The position numbers were made by a program, and so were the translations under genes. This document shows positions 15,401 through 58,110 of a stretch of 64,000 nucleotides of DNA, one piece after another. Under the pieces are notes generated by a model. It did no database searches. It saw only the letters and a program-made list of their open reading frames with translations, and had not been told where the DNA came from. The stretch spans positions 6,758,001 through 6,822,000 of the forward strand of contig NZ_JADBEK010000001.1 in the NCBI RefSeq assembly GCF_014873145.1, in the 5' to 3' direction. Every line of letters begins with the position of its first letter. Positions within the stretch are counted from its first letter, which is position 1. The stretch comes from Nonomuraea angiospora (GTDB lineage: Bacteria; Actinomycetota; Actinomycetes; Streptosporangiales; Streptosporangiaceae).

Positions 15401-15478
15401 TTGACAGTCTCTGTTGCGAACCTCAACACTCTATGCCGCCCAAAATATGTGACATAACGCACGCTGTTAGCGCTAACA
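15401..15478 (+). promoter_or_regulatory. Possible promoter and perfect LacI-type palindrome
   Basis: TGTTAGCGCTAACA at 15465-15478 is a perfect 14-base palindrome with central GC, of LacI-family type. It ends 27 bases before the start of the secreted HExxH protein. TTGACA at 15401-15406 is a good -35 candidate but no strong -10 follows. Near-copies of the palindrome lie inside the 5' ends of two sugar-operon genes (58060 and 53285). Confidence 0.6.
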
Positions 15479-15505
15479 CAAAGAGCGGCTCACGGAGGTT
15501 TCCGA

Positions 15506-17680
15506 ATGAGACGATTGCGGGCGGCGACGATCGCCCTCCTGATGCTTGTCACCGCGTTCCTCACGACCACCCCGGCGGCCACGGCGGCCACGGCGGCGAC
15601 CTCAGCGGCGGCGAAGAGCGTCTTCATCCCGGCACGCTGGCAGAGCACGGGCGAGGTGCCGTGGGCCAGTGACCGTACGAAGGAATCCGCGAACTTCATC
15701 TTGTTATGGGGCGACCGATCGGGCACGAACCCCAAGGCCGCGCCCTCCCCGTACAACTTCGACCCCGACAACATGCTCAGCCAGCTCGAGAGCCTCTACT
15801 CCTTCTACGTGAACACCATGAAGTTCACGCCGGAGACCGGGCTGCTGGCGCAGTACAAGATCATCGTCATCGTCACCAGGACCTGGTCGAACGCGCCGCT
15901 CGACGCGTGGGCGACGGGCGGCTCGACCGACGGCAAGGTCGGCGTCATCAACATCGCCCCCGCCGCCGCGCTCCCCGGCTCCTGGGGGCTGGCGCACGAG
16001 CTGGGGCACGTGTTCCAGAACTACACGTTCCTCGGCAGGTCCGGCTACGGGTTCACGGACCCGAGCGCGGGCACGTTCTGGGAGACGAGCGCCGAGTTCA
16101 TGGCCATGCAGGTCTACCCGAAGACGGCGGCGGGCGACCTGACGAGGTTCATCCGCACGGAGAACCTCGCCTACAGCAGCAGCCGGCACCACTACGGCAA
16201 CTGGATGCTGCTGCAGTACATCAAGGACCGCGACGGCCTGGCCATGTTCAACCGGCTGTGGAACGAGGCCAGGAGCAACGAGCACCCGCTGGAGACCTAC
16301 CGCCGGATCGCCGGCATCGACCAGGCCGAGCTCAACCGGCGGCTGGGTGAGTACGCCCAGCGCAACGTGACGTGGGACTACTCCAACCGCGCCGACTTCA
16401 TGCCGTTCATCAACAGCCTGTATCCCTTCGTCACGGCCTACAACGGCGTCGAGGTGCAGGCGGTCAACGCCTCGGCCGGGCACTTCCGCATCTCCGACGC
16501 CATCGCCCCCTCCGACTACGGCTACAACAAGATCCGCCTCGTCCCGAGCAGCGACGGCGCGCTCATCCGGATGCGGTTCAGGGGTCACGTCAACTCCGCG
16601 GCCGGGTCGGGCTGGTCGTACGGGTTCGTCGCGGTGAAGAATGGCACGCCCCGCTACAGCCCGATCTACAGCTCCTCGAACGGCGAGGTGACCTTCCAGA
16701 CCCAGGCGGGCGAGAAGGACGTCTACCTCGTGGTCGTCGGCGCCCCGAGCGCCGTGCACAAGTACGCCTTCCTCGACGGCTACCCGAAGAACTACCGCTA
16801 CCCGTACCAGTTCCGGCTGCAGGGCGCCACGCCGTGGGGTTTCGAGCCTGGTCACGTGAAGCCGGCCGCGCCGGGCGGCGGCCACTGGCACTCCAACGGC
16901 GGCGGCTGGGTGGACAACCGCGCCAACGTGGCCGCCACCGCCTACGTCGGCCCCCGGGCCGCCGTGTACGGCAACAGCACGGTCAGCGGCAACGCCCGCA
17001 TCGAGGACCTGGCCTGGGTCAACAGCGGCGCGACCGTCGGCGGCAGCGCCGTGGTGAAGAACAGCGCGCTGGTCCAGGGCGGCGCCAACCTCGGCGGCAG
17101 CGTGGTCGTCGGCGGCGACGCCGAGCCCGCGACGGCCTGCTCCTCGGGCACGTACCTGATGTTCAACCCCGACCGGCGCTGCGACGGCGGCGGTGGCGAG
17201 GCGGACGTCAACCCGTCCCACCCGATCTTCAGCGACGCCGACCTCGCCTTCGGCGGCGGGGGCGGCGACCCCACGCCCGTCAACCTGGCTTCGAGCGCGA
17301 CGCCCTCGGCCTCCTACACCTCGCCCTGGGAGAGCGTCGCCGCCGTCAACGACGGCCTCGTGCCCAGCCCGCGCTGGGGCACCTGGCCGGAGACCGGCAC
17401 CCAGTGGGCCGAGCTGACCTGGTCCTCGGCCCAGACGATCAAGTCGGCCGAGGTCTACTTCTTCGACGACGGGGGCGGCGTGCGCGTGCCCGCCTCGTGG
17501 AAGCTGCAGTACTGGAACGGCAGCGCGTACGCGGACGTGCCCGGGGCGAGCGCGTACGGGATCACGGCCGGGGCCTACAACCCGGTCACGTTCACCGCTG
17601 TCAGCACCACCAGGCTGCGGGTCGTGCTGCAGAGCGGCCAGGGCTCGGTCGGCCTCCTGGAGGTCCGCGCCTTCGGCTGA
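15506..17680 (+). CDS. Secreted HExxH metalloprotease-like protein with C-terminal binding module
   Basis: This is a 724-aa exported protein. The signal peptide is MRRLRAATIALLMLVTAFLT, cut after an Ala-rich stretch. Residues about 35-290 form a DUF6055/Svx-like domain with HELGHVFQNY (HExGH, zinc-type) and a downstream WETSAEFMAMQ glutamate. Residues about 460-560 hold hexapeptide-like beta-helix repeats (NVAATAYVGPRAAVYGNSTV, SGNARIEDLAWV). Residues about 595-724 are a discoidin/F5-8C-like module (SASYTSPWE, FFDDGGGVRVPASWKLQYW). The last module closely matches one in the glycoside hydrolase at 49325-53326. GGAGG precedes the ATG. A peptidase acting on wall- or polysaccharide-bound substrate is inference. 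Confidence 0.8.
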   Translation: MRRLRAATIALLMLVTAFLTTTPAATAATAATSAAAKSVFIPARWQSTGEVPWASDRTKESANFILLWGDRSGTNPKAAPSPYNFDPDNMLSQLESLYSFYVNTMKFTPETGLLAQYKIIVIVTRTWSNAPLDAWATGGSTDGKVGVINIAPAAALPGSWGLAHELGHVFQNYTFLGRSGYGFTDPSAGTFWETSAEFMAMQVYPKTAAGDLTRFIRTENLAYSSSRHHYGNWMLLQYIKDRDGLAMFNRLWNEARSNEHPLETYRRIAGIDQAELNRRLGEYAQRNVTWDYSNRADFMPFINSLYPFVTAYNGVEVQAVNASAGHFRISDAIAPSDYGYNKIRLVPSSDGALIRMRFRGHVNSAAGSGWSYGFVAVKNGTPRYSPIYSSSNGEVTFQTQAGEKDVYLVVVGAPSAVHKYAFLDGYPKNYRYPYQFRLQGATPWGFEPGHVKPAAPGGGHWHSNGGGWVDNRANVAATAYVGPRAAVYGNSTVSGNARIEDLAWVNSGATVGGSAVVKNSALVQGGANLGGSVVVGGDAEPATACSSGTYLMFNPDRRCDGGGGEADVNPSHPIFSDADLAFGGGGGDPTPVNLASSATPSASYTSPWESVAAVNDGLVPSPRWGTWPETGTQWAELTWSSAQTIKSAEVYFFDDGGGVRVPASWKLQYWNGSAYADVPGASAYGITAGAYNPVTFTAVSTTRLRVVLQSGQGSVGLLEVRAFG

Positions 17681-17702
17681 TGGGACGCAGGATAATCGGC
17701 GC

Positions 17703-18248
17703 ATGGCAGACCCCGTCGAGATAGCGGACCATGACCCGGCCTGGCAGGAGGAGTTCGCCAGGATCGGCGAGGCCCTGCGCCGGCGGCTCGGCGACGTGGC
17801 ACCGCGGATCGATCACATCGGATCGACCGCGGTGCCCGGCCTGGCGGCCAAGCCGGTGATCGACGTCCAGGTGTCGGTGCGGTCGTTCGAGCCGCCGGAG
17901 GCGTTCAGGCCGCCGCTGGAGAGCCTCGGCCTGGTGTACCGGGCGGACAATCCCGACCTGACCAAGCGCTACTTCCGCGAGGCGTCGGGCGAGCGCCGCA
18001 CGCACGTCCATGTACGCGTGCTGGGCAGCTTCTCCCAGCAGCTCTCCCTGCTCTTCCGCGACTACCTGCGCGCCCACCCCGAAAGCGCGGCCGAGTACGC
18101 GGCGGTCAAGCGGCGTCTCGCGGCCGAGTTCCGGCACGAGCGGCACCGATACGTCGAGGCGAAGCGGCCGTTCGTCTGGGACACGCTTCGCCAGGCCGAC
18201 GGCTGGTCTCAGGTCACCGGCTGGGCGCCGGGGCCGAGCGACGCGTGA
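17703..18248 (+). CDS. GrpB family protein (nucleotidyltransferase-like, UPF0157)
   Basis: The 181-aa product is of usual GrpB length. Typical motifs are DPAWQEEFARIGEALRRRLG, IDHIGSTAVPGLAAKPVIDV and THVHVRVLGSF near residue 100. The GST-x-VPGLAAKPVID segment resembles the metal-binding strand of the nucleotidyltransferase fold. The biochemical role of the family is not well established. It begins 22 bases after the preceding stop and converges on the transporter gene with almost no gap. Confidence 0.88.
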   Translation: MADPVEIADHDPAWQEEFARIGEALRRRLGDVAPRIDHIGSTAVPGLAAKPVIDVQVSVRSFEPPEAFRPPLESLGLVYRADNPDLTKRYFREASGERRTHVHVRVLGSFSQQLSLLFRDYLRAHPESAAEYAAVKRRLAAEFRHERHRYVEAKRPFVWDTLRQADGWSQVTGWAPGPSDA

Positions 18249-18249
18249 C

Positions 18250-19593
18250 TCAAGGGCTGGTCTCGGTCTTGGTCGGTACGTCGTCGTACTCGACCGCGTA
18301 ATCCTGCTTCGACCGGTCCTTCAAGGCGAACGCCGCAACCACGCTGATCAGCGCACATATCGCCATATAGACGGCTACGGCGAACGAGCTCTGGTACGTC
18401 GCGTACAACCAGACCGCGATCAGCGGCGCGGGCCCGCCCGCCGTCACCGAGGCCAGCTGGTAGCCGAGCGAGGCCCCGCTGTAGCGCAGCCGCCCGGTGA
18501 AGCTCTCGGCGATGAACGTGGCCTGCGGGCCGTACTGGATGTCGTGAATGGGCGCCGCCAGCACGATGGCCAGCAGGACCAGCGAGGGGACGCGGGTGTC
18601 CAGCAGCGGCCAGTAGACGAACGACCAGACCACCATGGCCGCGGCCCCGATGATGTACAGCTTGCGGCGGCCCACGAGGTCCGAGACGTATCCCCAGAAG
18701 GGCACGGTGAACAGCGACACGATCCCGGCGGCGATGACGTACGGGTAGATGTCACCCGCCTTGAACCCGAGGGTCTTGGTGGCGTACGTGAGGATGAAGA
18801 CGGTGAAGATGTAGAACGGCGCCTGCTGCCCGGTCCGGAGCAGCGCGCTCAGCACGATCTCCCGCCAGTTCCTGACGATGACCTCGCGCACCGGGACGCG
18901 TTCGACCCGGTTCTCCTGGAGGACCTTGGTGAAGACCGGCGTCTCCAGGATGCCGAGCCTGATGTAGAGGCCGACGCCGGCCATCACGATGCTGAGCAGG
19001 AACGGGATGCGCCAGCCCCAGTCGGGGTCGAGCGGCTGGAACACCTCAAGGGCCAGGTAGCCGAGCACGAGCCCGACGGGCACCCCGAACTGCGGCCAGC
19101 TCCCCAGGAACCCGCGCCGCCCGCCGCGCGACTTCCCCCACTCGGTGGCCAGCAGCACGGACCCGCCCCACTCACCGCCGACGCTGATGCCCTGCAGCAG
19201 CCGCAGCACGGTCAGCAGGATGCCGCCCCAGATGCCGATCTGCTCGTACGTCGGCACCAGCCCGACCAGCGCGGTGGCGATACCCATGCTCAGGAGCGTG
19301 ATGATGAGCGTGGCCTTGCGGCCGATCCGATCGCCGTAGTGCCCGAAGATCGCCGCCCCGATCGGACGGGCGGCGAATCCGCCGAAGTAGGTGCCGAGGG
19401 ACAGGAGCAGGCCCGTGGTCGGGTCGCTCTTGGGGAAGAACAGCTCCGCGAAGATCGTGCTGGCGGCGAAGCCGTAGAGGAAGAAGTCGTACCATTCGAT
19501 CGAGGTCCCCACGGCGGAGGCGATCACCGCCCGGACCAGTTGCCTTCTCGTCTGCTGCTGACCTGTCGCGTCGGGTCGCTGCTCCTCTGCCAT
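18250..19593 (-). CDS. MFS transporter, metabolite:proton symporter (MHS) family
   Basis: The 447-aa membrane protein has about 12 helices. Its first helix region, ASAVGTSIEWYDFFLYGFAA, and the GGFAARPIGAAIFGHYGDR loop are signatures of the MHS family (ShiA, KgtP, ProP relatives), which import organic acids or betaines with protons. The GEWGGSVLLATEW segment in the middle is also typical. The C-terminal tail is acidic. The substrate cannot be told from sequence, and no catabolic gene is adjacent. Confidence 0.9.
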   Translation of the reverse strand: MAEEQRPDATGQQQTRRQLVRAVIASAVGTSIEWYDFFLYGFAASTIFAELFFPKSDPTTGLLLSLGTYFGGFAARPIGAAIFGHYGDRIGRKATLIITLLSMGIATALVGLVPTYEQIGIWGGILLTVLRLLQGISVGGEWGGSVLLATEWGKSRGGRRGFLGSWPQFGVPVGLVLGYLALEVFQPLDPDWGWRIPFLLSIVMAGVGLYIRLGILETPVFTKVLQENRVERVPVREVIVRNWREIVLSALLRTGQQAPFYIFTVFILTYATKTLGFKAGDIYPYVIAAGIVSLFTVPFWGYVSDLVGRRKLYIIGAAAMVVWSFVYWPLLDTRVPSLVLLAIVLAAPIHDIQYGPQATFIAESFTGRLRYSGASLGYQLASVTAGGPAPLIAVWLYATYQSSFAVAVYMAICALISVVAAFALKDRSKQDYAVEYDDVPTKTETSP

Positions 19594-19666
19594 CTACCGC
19601 TCCTCGGTAGGTCTTACCTTTCCCGCGACGTTACATGACGCAACATTGACGGTCACGATGCTGCTT

Positions 19667-20917
19667 TTAGAAGTATTTGGGGGCCAGGTCAGTGGTGGGC
19701 CACGTCTTCACGGTGCCGATCGCCGCACCGAGGATGGGGTCGATCGCGTCGAAGTCGAGCGTGCCCTCCTCCTCCCTGCGGTTGAAGATCGCGCAGTAGC
19801 TGACGCCGTTCTGCACCCGCGCGAGGAAGCTGTACGTGCCGGGCATGCTGCCGGTGTGCCAGGTGTTCAGCCCTCCGGCGTTGTTGTCGCGCACGTTCCA
19901 GCCGAGGCCGTACCAGGAGCCGCCGGCGGTCACGCCGGTCTCGGGCTTGGCGAATATCCGCGAGATCGACGTGGCGTTGAGCACGGGCCCGGCGGCGTTG
20001 AAGACGAAGCCCCACTTGACCAGGTCGACGGCCGAGGCGAGCCAGCCGCCGTTGGCGTCCTGGTTGGGCATGTTGAAACCGCCGTAGGGGTACGGCACGA
20101 CGGCGCCCGACTGGTCCACGACGCTCTTGTGGGTGTACTTCGAGGCGTAGGTCACCTCGGTGGAGAAGGCCTCGGAGCGGAGGCTGCGGCCGAGGCGCGG
20201 CCGGGTGATCCCGGCGGGTGCGAGGAGCTTCTGCCGCACGTACGACTCGTAGCTCGTGCCGGAGACCTTCTCGATGATCCGCCCGGCCAGCATGTAGCCG
20301 TAGTTGCTGTAGGCGTACTTCGTGCCCGGGTCGAAGTCGAGCTTCCTCGCGGTGACGTACTTGATGATGTCGGCGTGGCTGATCGGCAGCGGCGCGTCCA
20401 GCGACGCGGAGATCGTGTAGTCGTTCCACAGCGGGTCGCCCGACACGCTCGAGTCCCAGCCGCCGAGGTGCTGGAGCAGGCGCCACAGGGTGACGTTCGC
20501 CAGCCGGGGGTCCGCCGTGGTGGACAGCCCCAGCACGGAGGCCACCTTGGCGCCCAGGGTCAGCTTGCCGTCCTGGACCAGCCGGACGATCGCGGCCGCC
20601 GTGATGTTCTTGCTGAGGCTGGCGACCCGGAACAGGGACGTCGGCTGCACCCGCACGATGGGGGCGCCCGGCTTGGAGTAGAAGCCGTAGCCGCGCGCGA
20701 GCAGGATCTTGCCGTTCTTGGCGACCGCGAGCTGGGCGCAGGAGATGTCCCGTTCCGTGATGAACGTCTTCATCGCCTTGTCGAACCCGGCCATCGCGCT
20801 CGGCACGACACCCGTGGTCAGCGGCTCGGCCACGGCGGCCGAAGCGGGACGTGCCCCCAGCGCGATCGCCGGCACGGCACCCGCGCCCGCCTGGAGAAGC
20901 CGTCGGCGGCTGAACAT
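19667..20917 (-). CDS. Tat-exported serine hydrolase, class C beta-lactamase fold
   Basis: The product has 416 aa from ATG 20917; GTG 20923 is an alternative. The N-terminus SRRRLLQAGAGAVPAIALGA is a twin-arginine-type signal. The catalytic triad motifs of the serine beta-lactamase/DD-peptidase family are present: SLSK (SxxK) within RVASLSKNITAAAI, YSN within KYAYSNYGYMLAG, and HTG within TWHTGSMPGTYSF. Such enzymes are esterases, D-aminopeptidases or penicillin-binding-like proteins; resistance is not implied. It stands alone between the MHS transporter and a region of uncertain coding. Confidence 0.88.
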   Translation of the reverse strand: MFSRRRLLQAGAGAVPAIALGARPASAAVAEPLTTGVVPSAMAGFDKAMKTFITERDISCAQLAVAKNGKILLARGYGFYSKPGAPIVRVQPTSLFRVASLSKNITAAAIVRLVQDGKLTLGAKVASVLGLSTTADPRLANVTLWRLLQHLGGWDSSVSGDPLWNDYTISASLDAPLPISHADIIKYVTARKLDFDPGTKYAYSNYGYMLAGRIIEKVSGTSYESYVRQKLLAPAGITRPRLGRSLRSEAFSTEVTYASKYTHKSVVDQSGAVVPYPYGGFNMPNQDANGGWLASAVDLVKWGFVFNAAGPVLNATSISRIFAKPETGVTAGGSWYGLGWNVRDNNAGGLNTWHTGSMPGTYSFLARVQNGVSYCAIFNRREEEGTLDFDAIDPILGAAIGTVKTWPTTDLAPKYF

Positions 20918-21096
20918 GGTCACATTTCCCCCAATTGTCACAAATGCCTCAAGACTAACCCTCGACGGACAGCCGCCGCTCCAGCGTGGTCCGCAGCGCC
21001 CAGGCAGCCTCCCGCAGTGCGGTCGCCAGGGCCCAGGCGGCGCTGCAGCACGGTCCGCAACGGCCGGGCAGCCACTACAGCGCTCGGTGGCGGTGC

Positions 21097-21270
21097 TCAG
21101 GCCGCCTCCGCGGCGCGGAAGGTCTTGAGCGCTTCCCGGCCGAAGTAGGAGCCGTAGCTGGTGGTGCTGTTGCGCAGCGCGTGGGTGGAGATCTGGGTGA
21201 CGCACCGCTTCGTACCGGCCGACGGGGTGGGCACGAGGTCCACCTGCTCCTGCGCGGCGTACGACGTCAC
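21097..21270 (-). CDS. Possible small protein of 57 aa
   Basis: In the 423-base interval between two clear genes, the minus strand has one short frame that reads like a protein. It starts with GTG at 21270 (MTSYAAQEQVDLVPTPSAGT) and ends HALRNSTTSYGSYF..FRAAEAA. AGGAG lies only about 1-2 bases from the GTG, which is too close to be ideal. Composition is normal (Ser/Thr/Tyr mixed), unlike the Arg/Ala-rich shadow frames. No family is recognised. It might be the C-terminal remnant of a larger protein. The rest of the interval (20918-21096) shows a short GC-rich repetitive stretch (cagcg/gcagc words) and no convincing gene. Confidence 0.35.
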   Translation of the reverse strand: MTSYAAQEQVDLVPTPSAGTKRCVTQISTHALRNSTTSYGSYFGREALKTFRAAEAA

Positions 21271-21340
21271 ACTCCTGGGCCACTCTGTCGGTGCCGCGCT
21301 TCATACTCGCCATCAAGCACCGATCTTTCAGGAGGCGCCC

Positions 21341-21994
21341 ATGGCGAGGGGATCCAGACGGGGCAACAAGCGGCGGAAGTCGAGCGATCTTCGAGTGATG
21401 GCACTGGTGGGAGCCGGTGTCGTGATCACTTTCGTGGCCTACTTCATCACCCGATATCCGGGATGGGCGATGGCCATCACCATCGTCCTGATCGCGGCCC
21501 TGAGCGGCGGGCTCTTCCTGCGGCACCGGGTCATCCAGGCCCGCCGCCTGCAGTTCCTGGCTGCCAACGCGGCCCTGGAGAAGGTCGACCTCATGACCGG
21601 GCCGCAGTTCGAGCAGCTGGTCGCCGAGCGCATGATCGCCCAGGGGTTCCGGCGGGTGCGGATCCGGGGCGGTGCCGGGGACGGCGGGGTGGACATCACG
21701 GCCGTCGCGCCCGACGGCACGCGATGCGCCGTCCAGTGCAAGCGCTACAACAAGAGCGTCGGCGCACCGGCGGTCCGCAACTTCCTCGGCGCCCTGGCCA
21801 ACGCCTTCAACGGGCACACCGGCGTGCTCATCACCTCGGGGCGACTCACCCGCCCGGCGCGAGAGGAGGCGACCAACGCGCGCCAGAGGCTGCTGCTCGT
21901 CGACCGCGACCTGCTCGCCGATTGGCTGACCGGGCGGTTAGCGCTGCTGGCCAAGCCGGCACCGCTGGTCGAAGGCGACGAGCCGGCGACCTGA
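21341..21994 (+). CDS. Membrane-anchored Mrr-type restriction endonuclease-like protein
   Basis: From ATG 21341 (AGGAGG just upstream) the product has 217 aa. A basic N-terminus precedes two transmembrane segments (VMALVGAGVVITFVAYFI and AMAITIVLIAALSGGLFL). Residues about 85-190 form an Mrr catalytic domain: LMTGPQFEQLVAERM, then GGAGDGGVDI with the catalytic Asp, and AVQCKRYN with the Q/E-x-K motif. Membrane-bound Mrr_cat proteins are frequent in actinobacteria; a role against foreign DNA is assumed by family and not shown. It converges with the ABC exporter genes across a hairpin. Confidence 0.88.
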   Translation: MARGSRRGNKRRKSSDLRVMALVGAGVVITFVAYFITRYPGWAMAITIVLIAALSGGLFLRHRVIQARRLQFLAANAALEKVDLMTGPQFEQLVAERMIAQGFRRVRIRGGAGDGGVDITAVAPDGTRCAVQCKRYNKSVGAPAVRNFLGALANAFNGHTGVLITSGRLTRPAREEATNARQRLLLVDRDLLADWLTGRLALLAKPAPLVEGDEPAT

Positions 21995-22021
21995 ACAGCG
22001 GCGAGCGGAGCGATCAACCAG

Positions 22022-22053
22022 CTCGGGCGGCCCCCAAAGGACACACGCCCGAG
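22022..22053 (+). terminator. Bidirectional hairpin between convergent genes
   Basis: CTCGGGCG (22022-22029) and CGCCCGAG (22046-22053) are perfect arms with a 16-base loop. The hairpin lies between the ends of the Mrr-like gene and the second ABC gene and may serve both. No T-run. Confidence 0.45.
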
Positions 22054-22054
22054 G

Positions 22055-25722: not shown

Positions 25723-25887
25723 TGGCAGGCCCTCCCCCGGGCACGAGCACGTGCGTCTCGAACCTGCTTTCTATCACCGGGCGCCGACAGTTTCCCAGCT
25801 GATTTTCACCGGGCCCGGCCGGCGTGCGGACGGCCCCAAATGAAAGGTCCGATATCCGCCGTCGTCCCGCCTCCCGATCGGGCCAAG

Positions 25888-26784: not shown

Positions 26785-26851
26785 CCGCCATCACGGAGAC
26801 GGCCCACCGCGACTTCGGACGGCAGGCATGACCGCCGTCACGCAGACGGCC
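26764..26851 (+). repeat. 47-bp-period tandem duplication creating a 16-codon mini-ORF
   Basis: Bases 26764-26804 and 26811-26851 match at 37 of 41 positions. The unit spans the end of the hydrolase gene and the start of the transporter gene, so the duplication leaves an extra ATG (26781) and an extra stop (26829-26831). The resulting mini-ORF, 26781-26831, encodes MTAITETAHRDFGRQA. It overlaps the hydrolase stop by 4 bases and the transporter ATG (26828) by 4 bases, forming an ATGA relay. Confidence 0.8.
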
Positions 26852-28087: not shown

Positions 28088-28099
28088 TCAGGCCCGGAC

Positions 28100-28126: not shown

Positions 28127-28133
28127 GTGTCGA

Positions 28134-45398: not shown

Positions 45399-45468
45399 CT
45401 CGCCTCCCTGCGGCCTGATTTGTTCGCTCAACCGCCCCCTGCCCGCAAAAGCGCAGCTCAAGCCCTGT

Positions 45469-47048: not shown

Positions 47049-47102
47049 GCGCCCACTATGCGGGGGCGAAGGCATGAGCACCAATACTGAGCTGCGCGAA
47101 CG

Positions 47103-49154: not shown

Positions 49155-49260
49155 CCCGCGCTCCGCCTCTCCGATCCCCGGCACGCCTCCCGTAGAAGAG
49201 GATTATGACCCCTTAATCGGGATGAATCCGTACGCCGTTTCCGGGACGTTATCCGCGGGG

Positions 49261-49300
49261 CCCTGCCCTGACCCGCGATCGCCGCTGAGCCAGGGCAGGG
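49261..49300 (-). terminator. Perfect 10-bp-stem hairpin at the end of the sugar operon
   Basis: CCCTGCCCTG (49261-49270) and CAGGGCAGGG (49291-49300) pair fully around a 20-base loop, 25 bases past the stop of the last sugar-operon gene. No T-run. Confidence 0.55.
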
Positions 49301-49324
49301 AGCATCGGTGCTACCCCATCGGTG

Positions 49325-52300
49325 TCACCCCACGGTGACCGTGGCCTTGGCGGCGACGGTCGTGCCCGCCACCTGACCGTTCACCGTGAACGTGCCCGGC
49401 TGGGCGTACTTGTCAGGGCTGATCGCCTCCCAGGTGACCTCGGCCGAGCTGTCCTTCGAGCCGTCGTTGTACGTCGCCACGACGGTCCTGGGCAGCGAGG
49501 GAGCGACCCCGGCCCGGGTGGCGACGGCCTCCTCGGCGATCGAGGTGATCGTCACCGCCGAGGTCGTGCGGACGTACACGGTGGCCTGGGCGGGCTGGCG
49601 CACGCCCTCGGCCAGGCCGGCGACCGTGAAGCTGGTGCCGCCGGTCTTGACCTGGTCGGCCGTCACCTGCTGCCAGGTGACGGCGGCCGAGCTGCGGGTG
49701 CCGTCCGCGTAGAGGGTCTCCACCGTGGCGGGCAGCTTGGGCAGCGTGCCGGCCAGGGTGGGGACGTGGACGGGGCGCACGGAGTCCGGCGGGACCTCGT
49801 ACACCTTGACCTCCAGCAGGCCGACCGACGCCCCGCCGGCCTGGAGCTGGACGCGCAGCTTCGAGGTCGTCACGGTGTCGAACGCGACCGTGTTGTAGGC
49901 GTCGGCCGCCTTCGGGTAGGAGGCGACGCCGGTGACGTCCTCGAACGAGTCTCCGTCCCAGTACTGGATCTTCCACGAGGCGGGGACGCGCACGCCGCCG
50001 CCGTCGTCGAAGAAGTACACGTCGCTCTTGTTCACCCGCACCGCCGACGGCCATTCGAGCTGCACCCACTGCGTGTCCTGCTGCGGCCAGGTGCCCCAGC
50101 GCGGGTTGGCGCCGTCGTTGGAGCGCGGCGGGTCGATGCCGTCGTTGATCGCGGTGACCTTCTCCCACGGCGAGGTGTAGGAGGCCGTGGGCGTGGCCTT
50201 GGGCGCCACGTTCGCCTGCGCGGACTGGGGCGTCACGGTCACGGTCACGGTCGTGGAGCCGCTCTTCTCGCCGTCCGTGGCCGTGAGCTTCAGCCGGTAC
50301 GCGCCCGCCTCGGAGAACGAGACCACCGTGTCGGTGCCCGTCGGGTTGGTGAAGAACGCCTCACCCGGCCCGTCGACCTTGGCCCACTGGGTCGTGAGCC
50401 TGCCCGACGGCAACCCGTCGTCCTTGACCACCGCGTCGAGCCTGGCCTGGCCCGGGCGGCTGAACGTGAGGTCGGGCACGACCACCACGGACGGCGCCTT
50501 GTTGGCGACCGGGCCGGCGCCGGCGCCCGTCAGGTACGCCTGCACCTCCTTCAGCCCCGTCGCGTAGCCGGGCTGGTGCGTGACCAGCACCCGCAGCTTC
50601 TGCGTCGTGACGGCCGGGAAGCGGACCGCGTTGAGGTTGGCCCGCGGGTTGGCCGGCTTCCTGGCCTGGCCCGGCACGTCCTTCCAGGTGTCGCCGTCCT
50701 GGTACTGCACCGTGTAGAAGGCGGGCTCGCGGTAGCCGCCCGCCTTGCGGTCGTTGTAGAAGTACAGCTTGACCTGATCGACCTTCTGGGCCGAGCCGAG
50801 GTCCGCCGCCAGCCAGTCCTGGGCGTTGCCGGAGCCCTTGCTGCCCCAGTACGGCTCGTTGATCGTGAAGCCGTCCACCGCGCCGGCCGGGTCGCCGTGG
50901 GAGGCGGTGGCGGACCTGACCAGGTTGGGGCGGGTGGAGCGCAGGTCCACGCCGGCCTTCTGGAACAGGTCCTCGACCCGGTCGCCCTTCAGCTCGACCT
51001 GGGCGGGGGCCTTCATCGAGGCGGCCTTCTCGGCGTGCACCACCTGACCACCCTCGACCCTGCCCGTGGCCGGGTCCCAGACGGCGTGCGCCAGCCCCGA
51101 CAGGGTGACCTTGCGCTTGCCGTCGATCAGGATCGAGTACCCCTCGGGCACCCCGGCGTAGTGCCTGGTGCCGTCGCCCGGCTTGTCCCAGACGATGGTC
51201 AGGTCACTGCCCCGGTAGTTGATCCCGTTGACGCTGAAGTGGTCCCAGCCGATGTCCACCGGCCAGAGCTCGACCTTGCCGTCCGAGCGCGGGCGCAGGC
51301 CCATGGCGTCCTCGATGACGGTCCAGTTGCTGCTGCCCAGGATCGTGTGGTGGATCCAGGAGCGGTAGCCGATGGTCTTGGTCGAGGGGTTCCAGTCGGC
51401 CCAGAACTCGTTGGCGTCGGGGTAGCGGGTGTCGCCGCCGACGTACTGCGACCAGGCGTTCCAGTACAGAAGCTGCTTGTACTGGTCGGCGGTGATGTAC
51501 GGCGAGCTGTACTGCCGCAGCGCCTTGGAGAACAGCGCGAAGTTCCGGGTGGAGTTGATCTGCGAGAAGTTGTTGGAGCCGGGGTTGCCGGCGGCCGCGG
51601 CCTCCTTCTTGTCCTTCTGGTTGGCGGTGTACGCCGGGAAGATCGGATATTCCGCCGGGTCGGTCCACAGGCGCAGCGCCTCCCGGTACTTCGGGTCGTC
51701 CGTCGGCACGAGCCCGGTGGCGTACGGGATGTAGTTGTTGGACTCCTTCCACGGGATCAGGTTGCCCGTCTGGAGGTCGCGGTGCTTGAACAGCTTGTTC
51801 TGCTCGTCCCAGAGCAGCGTGAGGATGCCGTTCCTGACCTTGTCGGCCACGCCGCGCATCTCGGCCGCCTTTGCCGCGTCGCCCGCCAGCTCGTACGCCT
51901 GCGCCGCCGCCATCGCGTTGGCGTAGACGTAGGCGCCTTCGAGCCGCTCGTTGGCCCGGTCGTAGTAGTGGAACGACACCGCGTCGGCGTCGTTCCCGGT
52001 CATGGCCTCCCAGTCGTACTCGATGACGCCGTTCTTGTTGGAGTCGTAGGCGTTGAGCTGGCCGTACACGTCCTTCTCGGCGTAGCGGGCCAGGTTGCGC
52101 AGGATCGACGGCTGGCCGCCGTGGAGCTGGTAGCTCTCCAGGGCCGCGGCCGAGATGTACTGCGTGTAGCTGTTCGACCAGTTCTCGGGGTCGCCCGGGT
52201 TGTCGGTGTACTTGGAGTTGCGCGAGACCTCGCCCGCCGACACCCACGGCCCGTACGAGTAGATCGGGTCGCGCAGGTACTTCAGGTCCTGCACGAACAT

Positions 52301-53326
52301 CGGCACGGTCAGCACGATCGCGTTGTTGTAGCCCAGCGCCCCCTCGACCGACGTGGGGAACTGGAAGTCGTTCCCGGGGATGTCGGCGTCGAGGAAGTTG
52401 AAGCGCATGAGCCACCAGCGGTAGTACACGAACTTCTTGATGTTCTCGTCGGGCACGTCGATGTAGGGGAGGTTCTCGGCCCACCAGGCGTTGTAGTCCT
52501 GGAGCTGGCGGCGCAGCGCCTTCTCGGGCGAGCGGCCCTTGTAGCCGTCGTACTCCGCCCGCGAGCCGGGCAGCTCGTCGGTGACGAAGCCCATCTGCAC
52601 CTTGGTCCGCACGGTCTTGCCCGGCTCGACCGTCAGCGAGCCCTTGAGCGTGCCGTCCGAGACCTTCAGCCCGTCGCCGCTGAGCCGGGGGAAGATCGTG
52701 GTCAGCCTGTTCTTGGCCCAGACGGTCCCGGTCAGCTCGCGGTCGCCCTCGGGCGTCTTCGTGTAGGGAGAGGTCACGGTGATCGGCACGGAGCGCGCCG
52801 CGGACCCGGTGTTGGTGATCTCCAGCGTCGTCACGGCCACGTTCTCGTGGGTGATGAACTTCTTCACCCCGACCGACAGGCCGTCACCCGTGTACTGCCC
52901 GGTCCAGTGGCTGGGCATCTGCAGGCGCTTGGAGACGTCCTCGGTGAGCCGGCCGCCCAGCGAGACCTCGTACGCGCCGCGGTTGTCGATGCTCTCCCAA
53001 TACGCCACGAACCCACCGAAGCCGATGACCGAGGGATCGTGCTCCTTCATGAACAGCGCCCGCCCGCGCGTCATCAACCACGGGCCCGCCGGATCGTCGC
53101 CGGGGCGGGCCAGCATGCGGTCGATCCAGTACGAGTCGCCGCCCTTCTCCTTGTTGTAGATCTCCTCCATCATCTTGCGGGGGTGGTACGCCACGGGTTC
53201 GGCGGGCACCGGGTCTGCGCCCGTGAACACCGGCATCCCCAGGTCGTCCTGGGCGGCGTACGAAGGTGACGCGGCAAGCGAAGCTGTGAGCGTTAACACA
53301 GCCAGGCACACCAACGGTTTACGCAC
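49325..53326 (-). CDS. Secreted multi-domain glycoside hydrolase (MGH1-like catalytic domain)
   Basis: The product has 1333 aa. GTG 53326 has GGAGAGG upstream. The signal peptide is LVCLAVLTLTASLAA. Residues about 30-760 form an (alpha/alpha)6-type hydrolase (GH63/MGH1-like): YYRWWLMRFNFLDADIPGND, EYDWEAMTGNDADAVSF, YRSWIHHTILGSSNWTVIED. Then come an F5/8C-like domain (NLVRSATASHGDPAGAVDGF), an Ig/PKD-like domain, a second discoidin-like module (SASYTSPWE relative, FFDDGGGVRVPASWKIQYW) and two C-terminal Ig-like (Big_4) repeats (ATVETLYADGTRSSAAVTW). It is the last gene of the operon, 9 bases after GH127, and probably degrades the polymer whose products are imported. Confidence 0.85.
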   Translation of the reverse strand: MRKPLVCLAVLTLTASLAASPSYAAQDDLGMPVFTGADPVPAEPVAYHPRKMMEEIYNKEKGGDSYWIDRMLARPGDDPAGPWLMTRGRALFMKEHDPSVIGFGGFVAYWESIDNRGAYEVSLGGRLTEDVSKRLQMPSHWTGQYTGDGLSVGVKKFITHENVAVTTLEITNTGSAARSVPITVTSPYTKTPEGDRELTGTVWAKNRLTTIFPRLSGDGLKVSDGTLKGSLTVEPGKTVRTKVQMGFVTDELPGSRAEYDGYKGRSPEKALRRQLQDYNAWWAENLPYIDVPDENIKKFVYYRWWLMRFNFLDADIPGNDFQFPTSVEGALGYNNAIVLTVPMFVQDLKYLRDPIYSYGPWVSAGEVSRNSKYTDNPGDPENWSNSYTQYISAAALESYQLHGGQPSILRNLARYAEKDVYGQLNAYDSNKNGVIEYDWEAMTGNDADAVSFHYYDRANERLEGAYVYANAMAAAQAYELAGDAAKAAEMRGVADKVRNGILTLLWDEQNKLFKHRDLQTGNLIPWKESNNYIPYATGLVPTDDPKYREALRLWTDPAEYPIFPAYTANQKDKKEAAAAGNPGSNNFSQINSTRNFALFSKALRQYSSPYITADQYKQLLYWNAWSQYVGGDTRYPDANEFWADWNPSTKTIGYRSWIHHTILGSSNWTVIEDAMGLRPRSDGKVELWPVDIGWDHFSVNGINYRGSDLTIVWDKPGDGTRHYAGVPEGYSILIDGKRKVTLSGLAHAVWDPATGRVEGGQVVHAEKAASMKAPAQVELKGDRVEDLFQKAGVDLRSTRPNLVRSATASHGDPAGAVDGFTINEPYWGSKGSGNAQDWLAADLGSAQKVDQVKLYFYNDRKAGGYREPAFYTVQYQDGDTWKDVPGQARKPANPRANLNAVRFPAVTTQKLRVLVTHQPGYATGLKEVQAYLTGAGAGPVANKAPSVVVVPDLTFSRPGQARLDAVVKDDGLPSGRLTTQWAKVDGPGEAFFTNPTGTDTVVSFSEAGAYRLKLTATDGEKSGSTTVTVTVTPQSAQANVAPKATPTASYTSPWEKVTAINDGIDPPRSNDGANPRWGTWPQQDTQWVQLEWPSAVRVNKSDVYFFDDGGGVRVPASWKIQYWDGDSFEDVTGVASYPKAADAYNTVAFDTVTTSKLRVQLQAGGASVGLLEVKVYEVPPDSVRPVHVPTLAGTLPKLPATVETLYADGTRSSAAVTWQQVTADQVKTGGTSFTVAGLAEGVRQPAQATVYVRTTSAVTITSIAEEAVATRAGVAPSLPRTVVATYNDGSKDSSAEVTWEAISPDKYAQPGTFTVNGQVAGTTVAAKATVTVG
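53285..53298 (-). promoter_or_regulatory. LacI-type operator-like site inside the signal peptide codons of the GH gene
   Basis: TGTGAGCGTTAACA on the plus strand, 28 bases inside the gene, differs at two positions from the perfect palindrome TGTTAGCGCTAACA at 15465. Read as coding sequence it gives VLTLT and includes a TTA leucine codon, which is rare in this DNA. A closely matching site lies in the binding-protein gene. Confidence 0.45.
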
Positions 53327-53335
53327 TTGCCTCTC

Positions 53336-55171
53336 CTAGATCGGTAGCCAGACACGCATGGTCGCGGGGCCGCGGTTGCCCCACCGGTGGTAGGGCACGA
53401 GCCGGAGCCTGACGTCGGGGCCGCTCCCCTGGCCGCCGGAGGCGGGCGCGTACGGCCAGCCGTTGCCGTCCCCGGCGCCCAGCGTCGCCTCCACCTCCAG
53501 CTCCACCACGCCGTCCGCCTCGTGGTGCTCCACGGGCGGCTGGACCCGCGCGGTCAGGTCGCCCAGCGCCGGCTCGTCGGCCACCGACTCGGCGCAGTAG
53601 ACCAGCGGCCCCCGCTCCACCGCCGCGCTCCCCCGCAGCGCGTCGATCCGCCGGTCGGGGAACGTCCACCTGGGCGCCATCGGCAGCTCCAGCCGGATCT
53701 CGTCACCGGCCCGCCACGGCCCATCGACGTAGGCGTAACCGGGATCGACCGGGCGCACCGCCGGGCTCTCCGCCAGCGGCGCCTCCGGCGAGGACACCGG
53801 GACATGGGCGAGCGTGGCGTCCGTGGCCCACGCGGGGACGCGCAGCCCGATCCGGCCCTCGCCGCCCTCCAGCACCCGCACGCTCACCGAGCCGGTCCAC
53901 GGGTAGCCGGTCTCCACGCGTACCGCCAGGCCGCCGTGCCGGATCTCCGACGGGGTGTGGTGGTGGATCTGGATCCCGTCCGCGGTGGTCGTGGCCACGT
54001 ACGCGGCCAGCGAGGCCATCGTGCGGGCGATGTTGTTCGGGCAGCAGGACACGTCGAACCAGGGCGAGCGCAGCCCGCCCTCCGCGGCGTGGTTGACCCC
54101 CTCCAGCGGCACCGCCGGCACCCGCACCTGCAGCGGGTTGGCGTAGAAGAACGACTTGCCGTCCAGCGCCACGCCCGTGGCGAGCATGTTGTACAGGGTG
54201 CGCTCGGCGAGGTCGGCGTAGCGGGCGTCGCCCGTGGCCAGCAGCAGCCGGTGCGCCAGCATGACGGAGGCGATGCTCGCGCAGGTCTCGTTGTAGGCCC
54301 GGTCCGGCGGCAGCTCGTAGTCCTCGCCGTACGACTCGTCGGCATGCCTCGAGCCCATGCCGCCGGTCAGGTGGGTACGCCGGGCCACCGTGCGCTCCCA
54401 CTGGGACTCGATCGCCTTCAGCAGCTCCTGGTCGCCGGTCTCGATCGCCACGTCCACCACGCCGGAGGCGAGATAGAGCGCGCGCACCGCGTGCCCGCGG
54501 AACACCTGGGCCTGCCTGACCGGGATGTCGTCCTGGTAGTAGGCGCGGCCGAAGGGGATGTCGGCGAGCGCGGGCAGGCCGCGGCGCTCGACGAAGCGGC
54601 GGGCCATCTCCAGGTAGCGCTCGGTGCCGGTCGCGCGGTAGAGCTCGACCAGGCCCATCTCGATCACCGGGTGGCCGCAGGTCCGGGTGCCCTCCATGAA
54701 GCGGCGGCACACGTGGTCGGCGGCCTTGATCGCGACCTGGGTGAGCCGGTCCTCGCCGTGCATGCGCAGCCGGGCGACCCCGGCCTGGATCAGGTGCCCG
54801 TAGCAGTAGAGCTCGTGGCCCCACTCGAAGTCGGTGTAGCGGCTGCCGGACCAGCGGGTGTTGATGTATCCGTCGCCCTCCTGGGCCTGGGCCACGGTCT
54901 CGGCCAGCGCGGGCAGGGCCGGGTGGTCGGCCCAGGCCATGGCCTCCAGCAGCTTGTAGATCTCGGAGTCGCTGAACTCCCGCCCCCGGCGGGGCCGCTC
55001 GCCCCGGAAGTTGCCGATCCAGCCTTCCCGCTCTTCCCATTCCTGGCAGTGGGCGATCGTGACCTCGCGGTTGAGCGCGGCCCGGTCGCCCCAGAAGCCG
55101 GGGAGCAGCCGTACCGCGTCGAGGCCGAGGGGGGACAGGGCGCCCGATGAGGGCAGGACAGGGTTAGCCAC
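53336..55171 (-). CDS. GH127 (DUF1680) beta-L-arabinofuranosidase-type enzyme
   Basis: The 611-aa product has the usual GH127 length and no signal peptide, so it acts inside the cell. Motifs: LLPGFWGDRAALNREVTI at the start, WGHELYCYGHLIQAGVA, then YNETCASIASVMLAHRLL and WFDVSCCPNNIARTMASLA. The Glu and Cys of NETC and the Cys pair of SCCP are the zinc-cysteine catalytic centre known for HypBA1. It should remove terminal beta-L-arabinofuranosyl (or a related sugar) from imported oligosaccharides. The GTG start overlaps the permease end by 8 bases. Confidence 0.92.
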   Translation of the reverse strand: MANPVLPSSGALSPLGLDAVRLLPGFWGDRAALNREVTIAHCQEWEEREGWIGNFRGERPRRGREFSDSEIYKLLEAMAWADHPALPALAETVAQAQEGDGYINTRWSGSRYTDFEWGHELYCYGHLIQAGVARLRMHGEDRLTQVAIKAADHVCRRFMEGTRTCGHPVIEMGLVELYRATGTERYLEMARRFVERRGLPALADIPFGRAYYQDDIPVRQAQVFRGHAVRALYLASGVVDVAIETGDQELLKAIESQWERTVARRTHLTGGMGSRHADESYGEDYELPPDRAYNETCASIASVMLAHRLLLATGDARYADLAERTLYNMLATGVALDGKSFFYANPLQVRVPAVPLEGVNHAAEGGLRSPWFDVSCCPNNIARTMASLAAYVATTTADGIQIHHHTPSEIRHGGLAVRVETGYPWTGSVSVRVLEGGEGRIGLRVPAWATDATLAHVPVSSPEAPLAESPAVRPVDPGYAYVDGPWRAGDEIRLELPMAPRWTFPDRRIDALRGSAAVERGPLVYCAESVADEPALGDLTARVQPPVEHHEADGVVELEVEATLGAGDGNGWPYAPASGGQGSGPDVRLRLVPYHRWGNRGPATMRVWLPI

Positions 55172-55928
55172 GCAGAGCTCCTGACATGAATCCGCGCACG
55201 TAGTGGCGCTGCAGCACGATGAAGAGGATGAGACAGGGGAAGGCCATGACCATGACGCCGGCCTGGAGCATGCCGTAGTCGATGGCGCCGAACGTCTGCT
55301 GCGTCATGCTGACCACGGCCACCGGCAGCGTGAACGACGCGCCGTCGTTGAGCAGGATGAGCGGGGCGAAGAAGTCGTTCCACGACGCCAGGAAGGCGAA
55401 CAGGCCCACCGTGATCAGCGCGGGCCGCACGGCGTGCAGCAGGATCCTGGCGAACGCCCTGAACGTGCCGCAGCCGTCCACCAGCGCGGCCTCCTCCAGC
55501 TCGCGCGGCAGCGCCTCGAACGCGTTGCGCATCATGAACAGCGCGAACGGCAGCTGGAACATGACGAACACCAGCGAGAGCCCGACCAGGGAGTTCTGCA
55601 GGCCGAGATAGCCGAGCAGCACGTAGAGCGGGATCAGGATCGTCGCGTACGGCACCATGAGGATCGCCAGCGTGGCCAGGAACAGCAGGTTCTTGCCGGG
55701 GAAGTCGAAGCGGGCGAAGCCGTAGCCGCCGAGCGCGGAGACGACCAGCGTGCCCGCCACCGTCATCACCGACACCAGCACGCTGTTGGTCGCGTACGTG
55801 CCGAGCCCCTCGCCGAAGCGGGCCATCTCCAGGTAGTTGGACGGCTCCTCGAACGAGGCGTAACCGCTCCACACCAGCGGGAACAGGAAGAGCACCGCCA
55901 GGGCGGACAGCGTGAGGTAACGGCTCAT
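55164..55928 (-). CDS. Carbohydrate ABC transporter permease, MalG type
   Basis: The 254-aa product has six helices and the inner-membrane EAA loop that docks the ATPase (ELEEAALVDGCGTFRAFARI). It opens MSRYLTLSALAVLFLFPLVW and ends HYVRGFMSGALRG, as MalG-type (CUT1) permeases do. It is slightly short at the N-terminus. It overlaps the upstream permease by 4 bases and GH127 by 8. No ATPase gene lies in the operon; actinobacteria commonly supply it from a shared MsiK gene. Confidence 0.92.
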   Translation of the reverse strand: MSRYLTLSALAVLFLFPLVWSGYASFEEPSNYLEMARFGEGLGTYATNSVLVSVMTVAGTLVVSALGGYGFARFDFPGKNLLFLATLAILMVPYATILIPLYVLLGYLGLQNSLVGLSLVFVMFQLPFALFMMRNAFEALPRELEEAALVDGCGTFRAFARILLHAVRPALITVGLFAFLASWNDFFAPLILLNDGASFTLPVAVVSMTQQTFGAIDYGMLQAGVMVMAFPCLILFIVLQRHYVRGFMSGALRG

Positions 55929-56839
55929 CGCAGCCTCCGCATCATCAGCGTGTTGAGCCCGACGAGGGCGACCAGCAGGACGACCGAGAGCGCCGCCGCG
56001 CCGCCGAGGTCGAAGCGGAAGAACGCGTCGCGGTAGACGACCATGACCATCGAGACCGTGCTGTTGTCGGGGCCGCCGTTGGTGAAGACGAAGAACTGGT
56101 CGAAGGCCAGCAGCGAGCCGGTGACGCTGAGGATCAGCATCAGCGCCAGCGTCGGGCGCAGCAGCGGGAGCGTGATCTTGGTGAAGACCTGCCAGCGGTT
56201 CGCGCCGTCGCTCCTCGCGGCCTCGTACACCTCGGTCGGGATGGCCTGCAGGCCGGTCAGCAGGATGAGCATGTTGAAGCCGGCGAAACGCCACAGCACC
56301 AGCGTGATCGTGGAGAACAGCGCCATGTTCGGCGTGCCGATCCACTTGACCGGCTCGCTGGTGATGTGCAGCGCCTGGAGCAGGGGGTCGATGGGGCCGA
56401 AGTCGTTGTTCAGCATCCCGTAGAACAGCAGCCCGGCGGCGGCGAAGCCCACGGCGCCGGGCAGGAAGAACGCGGTCCTGAAGAAGCCGATGCCCGGCTT
56501 GCGGTCCTGCACCAGCATGGCGAGCCCGAGCGCCACGGCCGACAGCAGGACGGTCGTGATCGCCGTGTACTTGAGCGTGAAGAGGACCGCGTCCACGAAG
56601 AGCGGGTTGTCGCCGATCTTGAGGTAGTTGTCGGGGGCGTTGAACGTGGCCTGGCCGAGCAGGGGCCAGCGGTTCAGCGACATCCAGCCGACCAGCACCA
56701 GGGGCGCGATGAAGAGCACGCCCACGATGACGGCCGTCGGAGCCGTGTACAGCCAGCCCTGTACCTTCCTGCTCCGCCACCGGGCGGAGGGCGCGGAGTG
56801 CGCCGCCCGCCGTCCGGTTCGGTTCATCGTCAGAGTCAT
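55925..56839 (-). CDS. Carbohydrate ABC transporter permease, MalF type
   Basis: The 304-aa product has six to seven helices. The basic N-terminus is followed by GWLYTAPTAVIVGVLFIAPL. The EAA loop is EVYEAARSDGANRWQVFTKI, before LPLLRPTLALMLILSVTGS. It pairs with the MalG-type permease next to it and receives sugar from the lipoprotein. Its start overlaps the binding-protein stop by 4 bases. Confidence 0.93.
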   Translation of the reverse strand: MTLTMNRTGRRAAHSAPSARWRSRKVQGWLYTAPTAVIVGVLFIAPLVLVGWMSLNRWPLLGQATFNAPDNYLKIGDNPLFVDAVLFTLKYTAITTVLLSAVALGLAMLVQDRKPGIGFFRTAFFLPGAVGFAAAGLLFYGMLNNDFGPIDPLLQALHITSEPVKWIGTPNMALFSTITLVLWRFAGFNMLILLTGLQAIPTEVYEAARSDGANRWQVFTKITLPLLRPTLALMLILSVTGSLLAFDQFFVFTNGGPDNSTVSMVMVVYRDAFFRFDLGGAAALSVVLLVALVGLNTLMMRRLR

Positions 56840-58110
56840 TGTTGGAGTGACTTCGTGATCTCGGCGTTGAGCTGCGGGAGCTTCGAGGCGTCACCGAACA
56901 CGGCCTCGCGCGCGTAGCGCAGCCAGGGACCCTGCGGGTCGTTGAAGGTCTGGCCGAAGCGCAGCGCGTACGGCGTCTGGCCCTTGGCCACCAGCGAGTT
57001 GATCATCACCACGCGCGGGTCCTCCGCGGAGTACTTGTTGCCGGCCAGGTCGGTACGCGCCAGCACGTCCTTGTTCTTGGCCATGACCTCGACCTGGGCC
57101 TCGTCGCCGACCGTCCAGGACAGGAAGTCCCAGGCCGCGTCCGGGTTCTTGGACGTGGCGGAGATGCCGACGGAGTCGCCGCCCACGAACGTGGACTCGC
57201 CGCCGTCGGGGCCGGCGATCGGGGCGACGCCGATCTTCATGTCCTTGGGCATGAGGCCGAGCGTGGTGGAGGGCATCGGCATGACGCCGATCTCACCCTT
57301 GGGGAAGAAACCGGTCCAGGTCGGGCCCTGCTCCTCCTTGGCGGTCGGCCCGGTGACCTTCTTGTCGTACAGGTCGCGCCAGATCTTGAACACGTCGGTC
57401 ATCGCGGCCTGGTCGTTGAGCGACTGGGTGCCCTCGGCGTTCATGACCTGGCCGCCGGAGGCCCAGACGGAGGGCCAGAACGTGAAGACGTAACAGCCGC
57501 CGCAGTTGCCGCCGAAGAAAGTACCGTGGACCTTGCCGTCTTTGCCGAGCTTCTCCTGGATCGTGGTCGCCTGCTGGGCGAACTCCTTCAGCGACTTCGG
57601 CCCCTGCTCCGGGTCGAGCCCGGCCTTCTGGTAGAGGTCCTTGTTCCAGAACCAGACCGACAGGTCGAGCGTGTGCGGGAGCGTGTACATCTTGCCGTCG
57701 AGCGTGCCGAGCTTCATGTGCGAGGGGGCCAGGCCGTCCTTGAACGGCAGCTTCGCGACCCTGTCCGTGATGTCCATGAACAGACCCTGAGAGGTGTAGT
57801 TCGGGACGAAGATGACGTCGGCCGCGAACACGTCGGGGAGCTGCTTGGCACCGGCCGCCGCGGCGATGCGCGGCTGGTAGTTGTCGGTCGGGATGACGGT
57901 GAGCTTGACCTGAATGTTCTTGTGACTGCTGTTGTAGGCCTTGACCAGCCGCTCGCTCTGCGTCTGGGTGGCCGCACGGGTCCACATGGTGATCGTCACG
58001 GGACTCTCCGCCGACGGCGTGCTGCCCCCACCACCACCGCCGCTGCCGCAGGCCGCCGCTGTGAGCGCTAACACACCGAGGAGGGAGATCCCGGCCAGCC
58101 TTCGTCTCAT
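56836..58110 (-). CDS. Carbohydrate-binding lipoprotein of the ABC transporter
   Basis: The 424-aa product has a lipoprotein signal (RRRLAGISLLGVLALTAAAC) with the lipobox Cys at about residue 21, then a Gly/Ser linker and an extracellular solute-binding protein family 1 fold (SPVTITMWTRAATQTQSERL, GGDSVGISATSKNPDAAWDF). It delivers oligosaccharide to the two permeases. It is the first gene of the operon and has a strong promoter upstream. An operator-like sequence lies within its signal-peptide codons. Confidence 0.92.
   Translation of the reverse strand: MRRRLAGISLLGVLALTAAACGSGGGGGGSTPSAESPVTITMWTRAATQTQSERLVKAYNSSHKNIQVKLTVIPTDNYQPRIAAAAGAKQLPDVFAADVIFVPNYTSQGLFMDITDRVAKLPFKDGLAPSHMKLGTLDGKMYTLPHTLDLSVWFWNKDLYQKAGLDPEQGPKSLKEFAQQATTIQEKLGKDGKVHGTFFGGNCGGCYVFTFWPSVWASGGQVMNAEGTQSLNDQAAMTDVFKIWRDLYDKKVTGPTAKEEQGPTWTGFFPKGEIGVMPMPSTTLGLMPKDMKIGVAPIAGPDGGESTFVGGDSVGISATSKNPDAAWDFLSWTVGDEAQVEVMAKNKDVLARTDLAGNKYSAEDPRVVMINSLVAKGQTPYALRFGQTFNDPQGPWLRYAREAVFGDASKLPQLNAEITKSLQQ
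58060..58073 (-). promoter_or_regulatory. LacI-type operator-like site inside the signal peptide codons of the binding protein gene
   Basis: TGTGAGCGCTAACA differs at one position from the perfect palindrome at 15465-15478 and is palindromic at 12 of 14 positions. It lies about 37-50 bases into the coding sequence and includes a TTA leucine codon (residue 14). The wider 16-base word matches the one at 53285-53300 at 15 of 16 positions. Confidence 0.5.

Follow-up and report, generated by a model that had tools for sequence, protein, structure and literature searches.

The 14-bp motif analyzed here is probably the operator of an AraR/AraQ-like LacI regulator that controls L-arabinose/arabinan use in Nonomuraea, with the copy inside the signal-peptide codons of an ABC sugar solute-binding lipoprotein (SBP) gene acting as a roadblock to transcription. 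The comparison of sequences on which this reading is built starts from the window, a stretch of 64,000 nt from the 13.09-Mb genome of Nonomuraea angiospora, and extends to the rest of that genome, to the genus, and to other genera of the family. A first-pass annotation of the window had described three variants of one palindrome, one ahead of a gene for a secreted HExxH protein and two inside coding sequence, and all three are present at 15465, 53285, and 58060:

15465–15478, predicted operator TGTTAGCGCTAACA upstream of the DUF6055 (HExxH) gene, ending 27 bases before the ATG at 15506
15506–17680, plus strand, secreted DUF6055 protein with HELGH at residue 164, regulon member
53285–53298, minus strand, predicted operator TGTTAACGCTCACA in the signal-peptide codons (V-L-T-L-T) of a glycoside hydrolase (GH)-like protein, +29 to +42 of the gene
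58060–58073, minus strand, predicted operator TGTTAGCGCTCACA in the signal peptide of the SBP lipoprotein, codons 13–17 (V-L-A-L-T), +38 to +51 of the gene

The motif and its genomic distribution

The site TGTTAGCGCTAACA is a perfect 14-bp palindrome around a central CG, as in even-length operators of the LacI family. With up to two mismatches allowed, the window holds six strand-matches where 0.31 would be expected on average; none of 100 shuffles gave six. The motif consensus, TGTKARCGYTMACA, occurs exactly at 18 places in the N. angiospora genome versus 0 for the reversed pattern. The three window sites are members of one regulon motif. A literature search for the letters of TGTTAGCGCTAACA and GTTAGCGCTAAC returned no paper, which is a weak negative given that motif letters are frequently printed in figures.

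Genes and their starts in this genome were called with a simple script and by eye. On that basis, the 18 exact places divide into 14 in intergenic DNA or leaders, one over the start codon of araB, the two sites in signal peptides, and one 602 bases inside an open reading frame without evident role (position 12747786; L027:5787-5800). The LacI gene that precedes this reading frame has the helix SRQTVTRAIN. A site so deep in a reading frame counts against the AraR-operator explanation, and it is also the kind of place that chance matching would produce, as are the three places that the reversed pattern reaches within one mismatch, where the motif reaches 35. Chance as the source of the motif places nevertheless has a negligible probability in our estimate. 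Across 54 Nonomuraea genomes, the motif is found at 603 places and the reversed pattern at two, with at least one motif place in 52 of the 54, and the conservation of the SBP site among orthologues contradicts a chance origin.

The sugar operon and its two intragenic sites

That the two intragenic sites belong to the same operon, as had been proposed, is borne out by the gene order. Both fall within one same-strand run of genes:

56836–58110, minus strand, ABC sugar solute-binding lipoprotein (SBP), first gene of the operon (Pfam SBP_bac_1)
55925–56827, minus strand, putative ABC permease (gene call, inferred from position and sequence by eye)
55164–55928, minus strand, ABC permease, BPD_transp_1 (Pfam, scanned as the longer reading frame 55164–56894)
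53336–55171, minus strand, GH127 beta-L-arabinofuranosidase (Pfam)
49325–53326, minus strand, secreted protein with MGH1-like glycoside hydrolase (remote), F5/8-type C, and Big_4 domains (Pfam); start and signal peptide read by eye

The two sites do share a word, GTGTTA[A/G]CGCTCACAGC, in which 16 of 17 bases are identical, and each of the two genes does carry a TTA at its operator, a codon that makes up 0.7% of leucine codons in the codon-use set. The reading phase is the same in both genes, GTG TTA [A/G]CG CTC ACA, and it writes V-L-T/A-L-T in the signal-peptide core. Shifting the phase of TGTTAGCGCTCACA would bring in a stop (TGT TAG) in one of the two remaining frames and polar residues in the other.

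The GH-like gene has a tblastn match in 29 of the 43 genus loci (window included), with gene starts across these loci extrapolated from tblastn. The operator is exact in 17 of the 29, has one mismatch in one, and is absent from 11. Its absence from these 11 indicates that the GH site is less constrained than the SBP site and counts against the AraR-operator explanation. The distance from the operon promoter down to the site is 4.8 kb, and in the window the GH start follows the preceding stop after only nine bases. Two of the 14 loci without a tblastn match for the GH-like gene keep an exact site close behind GH127 (L073 and L087). In L073, which belongs to neither the 18 site-bearing nor the 29 matched loci, the operator is at the expected place and the start of the GH gene is in a broken frame. 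In L087, about 13 bases lie between GH127 and the exact operator, and the GH-like gene was not found there. The L087 site may be vestigial, or it may be retained as a site at the operon end; with no gene found behind it, it counts against the AraR-operator explanation.

Codon-by-codon conservation of the SBP site

A total of 42 SBP orthologues were found among the other 53 Nonomuraea genomes. Among the resulting 43 genus loci, the site is exact in 40, has one mismatch in two, and is missing from L112 (genome G040, 51% identity). That locus is kept in the 43-locus counts and left outside the codon alignment, which comprises 41 orthologues and the window (42 rows). The operator starts at +38 of the gene in 41 of 42 cases and at +35 in one.

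Free variation at the synonymous positions of the word had been named beforehand as the outcome that would speak against an intragenic operator, and the alignment did not show it. Codon 14 is TTA in 42 of 42 rows and codon 17 is ACA in 40 of 42. Codon 15 is GCG in 31 rows and ACG in 11; codon 16 is CTC in 38, CTA in two, TTA in one, and TTC in one. The whole aligned SBP set contains 43 TTA codons, 42 at codon 14 and one at codon 16, so that all lie inside the operator. Columns 14 and 17 are also the only ones in which a rare synonym is fixed (at least 90% of rows, with a synonym used for less than 6% of its amino acid). By Fitch parsimony, codons 13–17 underwent 0, 0, 0, 1, and 2 wobble changes, and the codons at the two edges, 12 and 18, underwent 11 and 14. 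First-base changes number eight at codon 15, all of the G/A kind that the operator permits, and six at codon 13, where the base lies outside the word. The wobble sum of codons 13–17 is the 11th lowest of 403 five-codon windows, a ranking in which amino-acid degeneracy is not controlled. This rank counts against the AraR-operator explanation, so that the case draws its strength from the identity of the fixed codons and from how the codons at the edges behave. Given such a peptide, the operator would be written with a chance of ~2e-5, or about two per 100,000 writings, under the codon use of the N. angiospora genome (42,174 codons). Changes within the word mostly follow the degeneracy of the operator, and the flanking wobble positions vary. 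The SBP site is an intragenic operator motif with conserved synonymous sites in translated sequence.

An alternative is that TTA and ACA are kept for the sake of translation, as a rare-codon ramp, a pause during signal-peptide synthesis, or a bldA-type TTA switch, and that the operator match is a by-product. Signal peptides without an operator do contain TTA, as in the SBP loci L200, L202, and L203 and, as read by eye, in the probable signal peptide of an araF-like SBP (L021, just upstream of the called start 15821, minus strand). Because the araF-like TTA lies outside any operator, a TTA in a signal peptide is not diagnostic by itself. Elsewhere in the SBP gene, AGA at codon 2 and CGA at codon 3 persist in most rows as well (40/42 and 36/42). 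Selection on translation does not, however, explain why the same 14-base word stands in non-coding leaders, nor why GCG/ACG, CTC/CTA/TTA, TTA, and ACA are conserved jointly, and the changes fall mostly at the degenerate places of the operator. In L189, a locus of another genus with one mismatch, word and phase are kept even though the word is four codons further from the lipobox cysteine (by eye). Moreover, orthologues that lack the site write similar peptides without TTA, as GCG TTG ACG CTG ACA (L177) or GCG CTG GCG CTG ACG (L194). The conserved operator pattern and these TTA-free peptides led us to reject a purely rare-codon reading, and we consider a translational origin of the pattern improbable.

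A probable regulon of arabinose genes

The operator ahead of the DUF6055 gene was followed through 10 orthologous loci, the window included: four have it exactly, four with one mismatch, and two have none near the start. With the site kept within one mismatch in eight of 10 loci, the proposal that one regulon joins the HExxH gene to the sugar operon gains support.

At araB (L021:4362-6002), the start codon itself lies inside the operator, whose sequence is T|GTG AAC GCT AAC A or a variant of the motif in all 30 AraR loci examined. The N-terminus of the kinase is MNAN, MSAN, or MNVN, and these N/S and A/V replacements preserve the motif. Locus L021 has both an araBDA-linked regulator gene and an operator at araB, the arrangement of an AraR/AraQ regulon. 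Genes at or near sites include those for GH51-type and GH54 arabinofuranosidases, the FGGY kinase (araB), and GH127. A GH42 beta-galactosidase stands at one-mismatch sites (L036), and a GH27 gene is the second gene after its site; naming by eye added araA, araD, another GH42, and ABC transporters. These are arabinose-related targets. The regulon extends far beyond the window and has the look of one for L-arabinose/arabinan.

A third signal-peptide case is suggested by the sequence of another solute-binding protein, of the LplA type (L037:3003-4526). Of 45 places found in the genus, 32 were examined. Eighteen of the 32 loci carry the one-mismatch signal-peptide word TGTTAACGCTAACG or TGTTAACGCTCACG (TGTTAACGCTMACG), with near-operator codons TTA ACG CTA/CTC ACG; among the others, the word is exact in G001 and G034, has two mismatches in eight, and is absent from four. 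A broader claim, on which we see the chances as even, is that dual-use codons run through the whole regulon. AraR-type operators would then occupy N-terminal codons of the SBP, the glycosidase, and probably the LplA-type SBP together with the araB start, selection on the operator would have fixed peptide words (V-L-A/T-L-T; M-N-A-N) genus-wide, and a second, elongation-stage repressor would be stacked below the LacI box at the promoter.

The predicted SBP promoter and the candidate regulator

Upstream of the SBP gene, a predicted promoter is shared with a LacI gene that runs in the opposite direction:

58128–58145, minus strand, box ACGTTTCCGAAAACCTTT overlapping the predicted −10/+1 of the SBP promoter, probable operator of the local LacI (inferred)
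58164–58169, minus strand, predicted −35 element TTGACA, with a 17-base spacer to TACGTT at 58146–58141
58221–59234, plus strand, divergent local LacI with helix SIATASKALNG, unlikely to bind the 14-bp motif

Transcription of the operon would start near 58134. Both TTGACA and the exact box ACGTTTCCGAAAACCTTT are present in all 43 genus loci, and outside the genus the box recurs with at most three mismatches at 29 of 38 loci, even where SBP identity is ~55%. This box is probably the operator of the divergent LacI. The region 58204–58220, just upstream of the divergent LacI start, contains a palindrome, GTTTCGAAAC, and TTCGAAACCCTTTTC; the latter is matched within three mismatches in 43 of 43 genus loci, with the L112 match overlapping the promoter box. 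A possible role for this region is as an autoregulatory site.

The 38 other-genus loci came from a search of 250 genomes of the family. Within them, the SBP operator is exact in two, within one mismatch in four, and absent at that threshold from 32; the Jiangella, Phytoactinopolyspora, Glycomyces, and Lentzea loci examined have no site within one mismatch near the SBP start. This scarcity outside the genus (6/38 within one mismatch) counts against the AraR-operator explanation. Because the promoter box is more widely spread than the intragenic operator, we take the intragenic operator to be a later addition.

The first-pass annotation had named the LacI proteins at 58221 and 62501 as candidate binders of the motif. 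This part of its proposal was not supported, as their helices, SIATASKALNG and SKVAVSYALNG, differ from the Lac type. In favor of the protein at 58221, its start lies 147 bases from the SBP site and it diverges from the operon. Against it, apart from the helix, a different box, ACGTTTCCGAAAACCTTT, stands at the shared promoter and is kept in other genera where the 14-bp site is mostly absent, and we regard binding of the 58221 protein to the 14-bp motif as very unlikely.

A LacI linked to araBDA fits better than either window protein by helix, linkage, and co-occurrence, and both were set aside in its favor. This protein is encoded outside the window, between araBDA and araFGH-like genes (L021; genome positions 4880045–4881058, minus strand), and the helix SHQTVSRVLN is found in 30 of 30 AraR loci examined. 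Its closest PDB relatives include, after a reconstructed ancestral LacI, the Lac repressor, which has a similar helix (SYQTVSRVVN) and prefers TGTGAGCGCTCACA. An AraR-like LacI (E ≤ 1e-80) and the motif are both present in 52 of 54 genomes and both absent from two (G014 and G051); the two motif-less genomes may be sister species, so the co-occurrence may amount to one event. For at least 12 of the 42 relatives that carry the SBP, the distance from it to an AraR-type gene is no more than 5 kb. The N. angiospora genome has AraR-like paralogues at five places (E ≤ 1e-80), one of them, at 12.66 Mb, with the helix SSQTVSRVVN. Because there are several such paralogues, the araBDA-linked LacI stays one candidate among them. 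It is probably, by these sequence features, a better candidate binder than the LacI proteins of the window.

A proposed roadblock

At many targets, the operator occupies the leader, a short way ahead of the start codon. In the SBP operon, the predicted −10/+1 region carries another conserved box, probably for the divergent local LacI, and the predicted leader is short. The putative AraR-type operator is located downstream there, in the codons for the hydrophobic core of the signal peptide. The phase NTG TTA RCG YTM ACA gives V/L-L-A/T-L-T, a usable h-region. When arabinose is absent, repressor bound at about +60 to +75 (the operator position counted from the predicted start) would block RNA polymerase that has already initiated, and the sugar, as the presumed effector, would relieve the roadblock. 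Further down, the glycosidase-gene copy would probably impose another block within the operon. The distance from the −35 element to the SBP operator is 96 in 28 loci, 105–110 in 12, and 118 in two (42 loci). Such a variable distance suits a position-tolerant roadblock and argues against phased contact. A roadblock at the SBP site is plausible from this arrangement.

LacI-family tetramers loop DNA, and the SBP site could instead pair with an upstream operator or, over 4.8 kb, with the site in the glycosidase gene. Potential partners do exist: 11 of 43 genus loci have another site (at most one mismatch) 1.2–1.6 kb upstream, and 18 of the 29 loci with the GH gene have the GH site. The SBP site persists, however, in loci that have neither a GH gene nor a site within ~1.7 kb upstream (L080, L083, and L098, for example), and its distance from the promoter is not fixed. 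This persistence without a partner site led us to reject looping as a general mechanism, and we judge that looping rather than a roadblock is unlikely to account for the SBP site.

Comparison with known systems

One close likeness is to the E. coli lac operators, which have the near-identical half-site TGTGAGCG and include a LacI-type operator within coding sequence, as here. The lac O2 site differs in lying ~400 bases inside lacZ and in being an auxiliary looping site.

The AraR of Corynebacterium glutamicum is of the LacI type. According to the portions of the literature considered here, it represses araA, araB, araD, and araE, and its deletion leads to constitutive expression (PMC5956887). 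In the portions of the AraQ study considered (PMC5928203), AraQ is a LacI-family regulator of araBDA in Bifidobacterium and other Actinobacteria, with orthologues in other actinobacterial families that have a conserved HTH and araBDA and araFGH as targets. A LacI-family regulator and araBDA targets are what AraQ shares with the proposed Nonomuraea regulon. As described in those portions, the study scanned −350 to +50 around starts and placed sites relative to −35/−10; the term "coding region" is absent from the paper's text, and no operator in signal-peptide codons appears in those portions.

Repressor sites within genes have been described elsewhere. In the parts considered of a study of Zur boxes in Bacillus subtilis, CcpA and CodY are cited as having intragenic roadblock or cis-repressive sites, and the Zur boxes themselves are repressor sites in coding sequence that reduce transcription; deletion of Zur left expression from the tested intragenic boxes unchanged (PMC4324032). 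What the Nonomuraea site offers is base-level conservation in 42 orthologues. A limited literature search for an operator in the coding sequence of a signal peptide with LacI and Streptomyces found no paper, and neither did a search for CebR and a bglC operator in coding sequence.

Intragenic operators, roadblock repression, and AraQ-type LacI regulons are thus already known. The unusual feature is that a probable operator makes up the core of a signal peptide and that its codons are conserved one by one across a genus. Scans of regulons restricted to upstream regions would miss such a site, and codon optimization would erase it. With its evolutionary trace, an invariant rare codon and changes mostly within the degeneracy of the operator, readable over 42 orthologues, the SBP gene provides an unusually clean natural case of a probable transcription-factor site and a protein signal written on the same bases.
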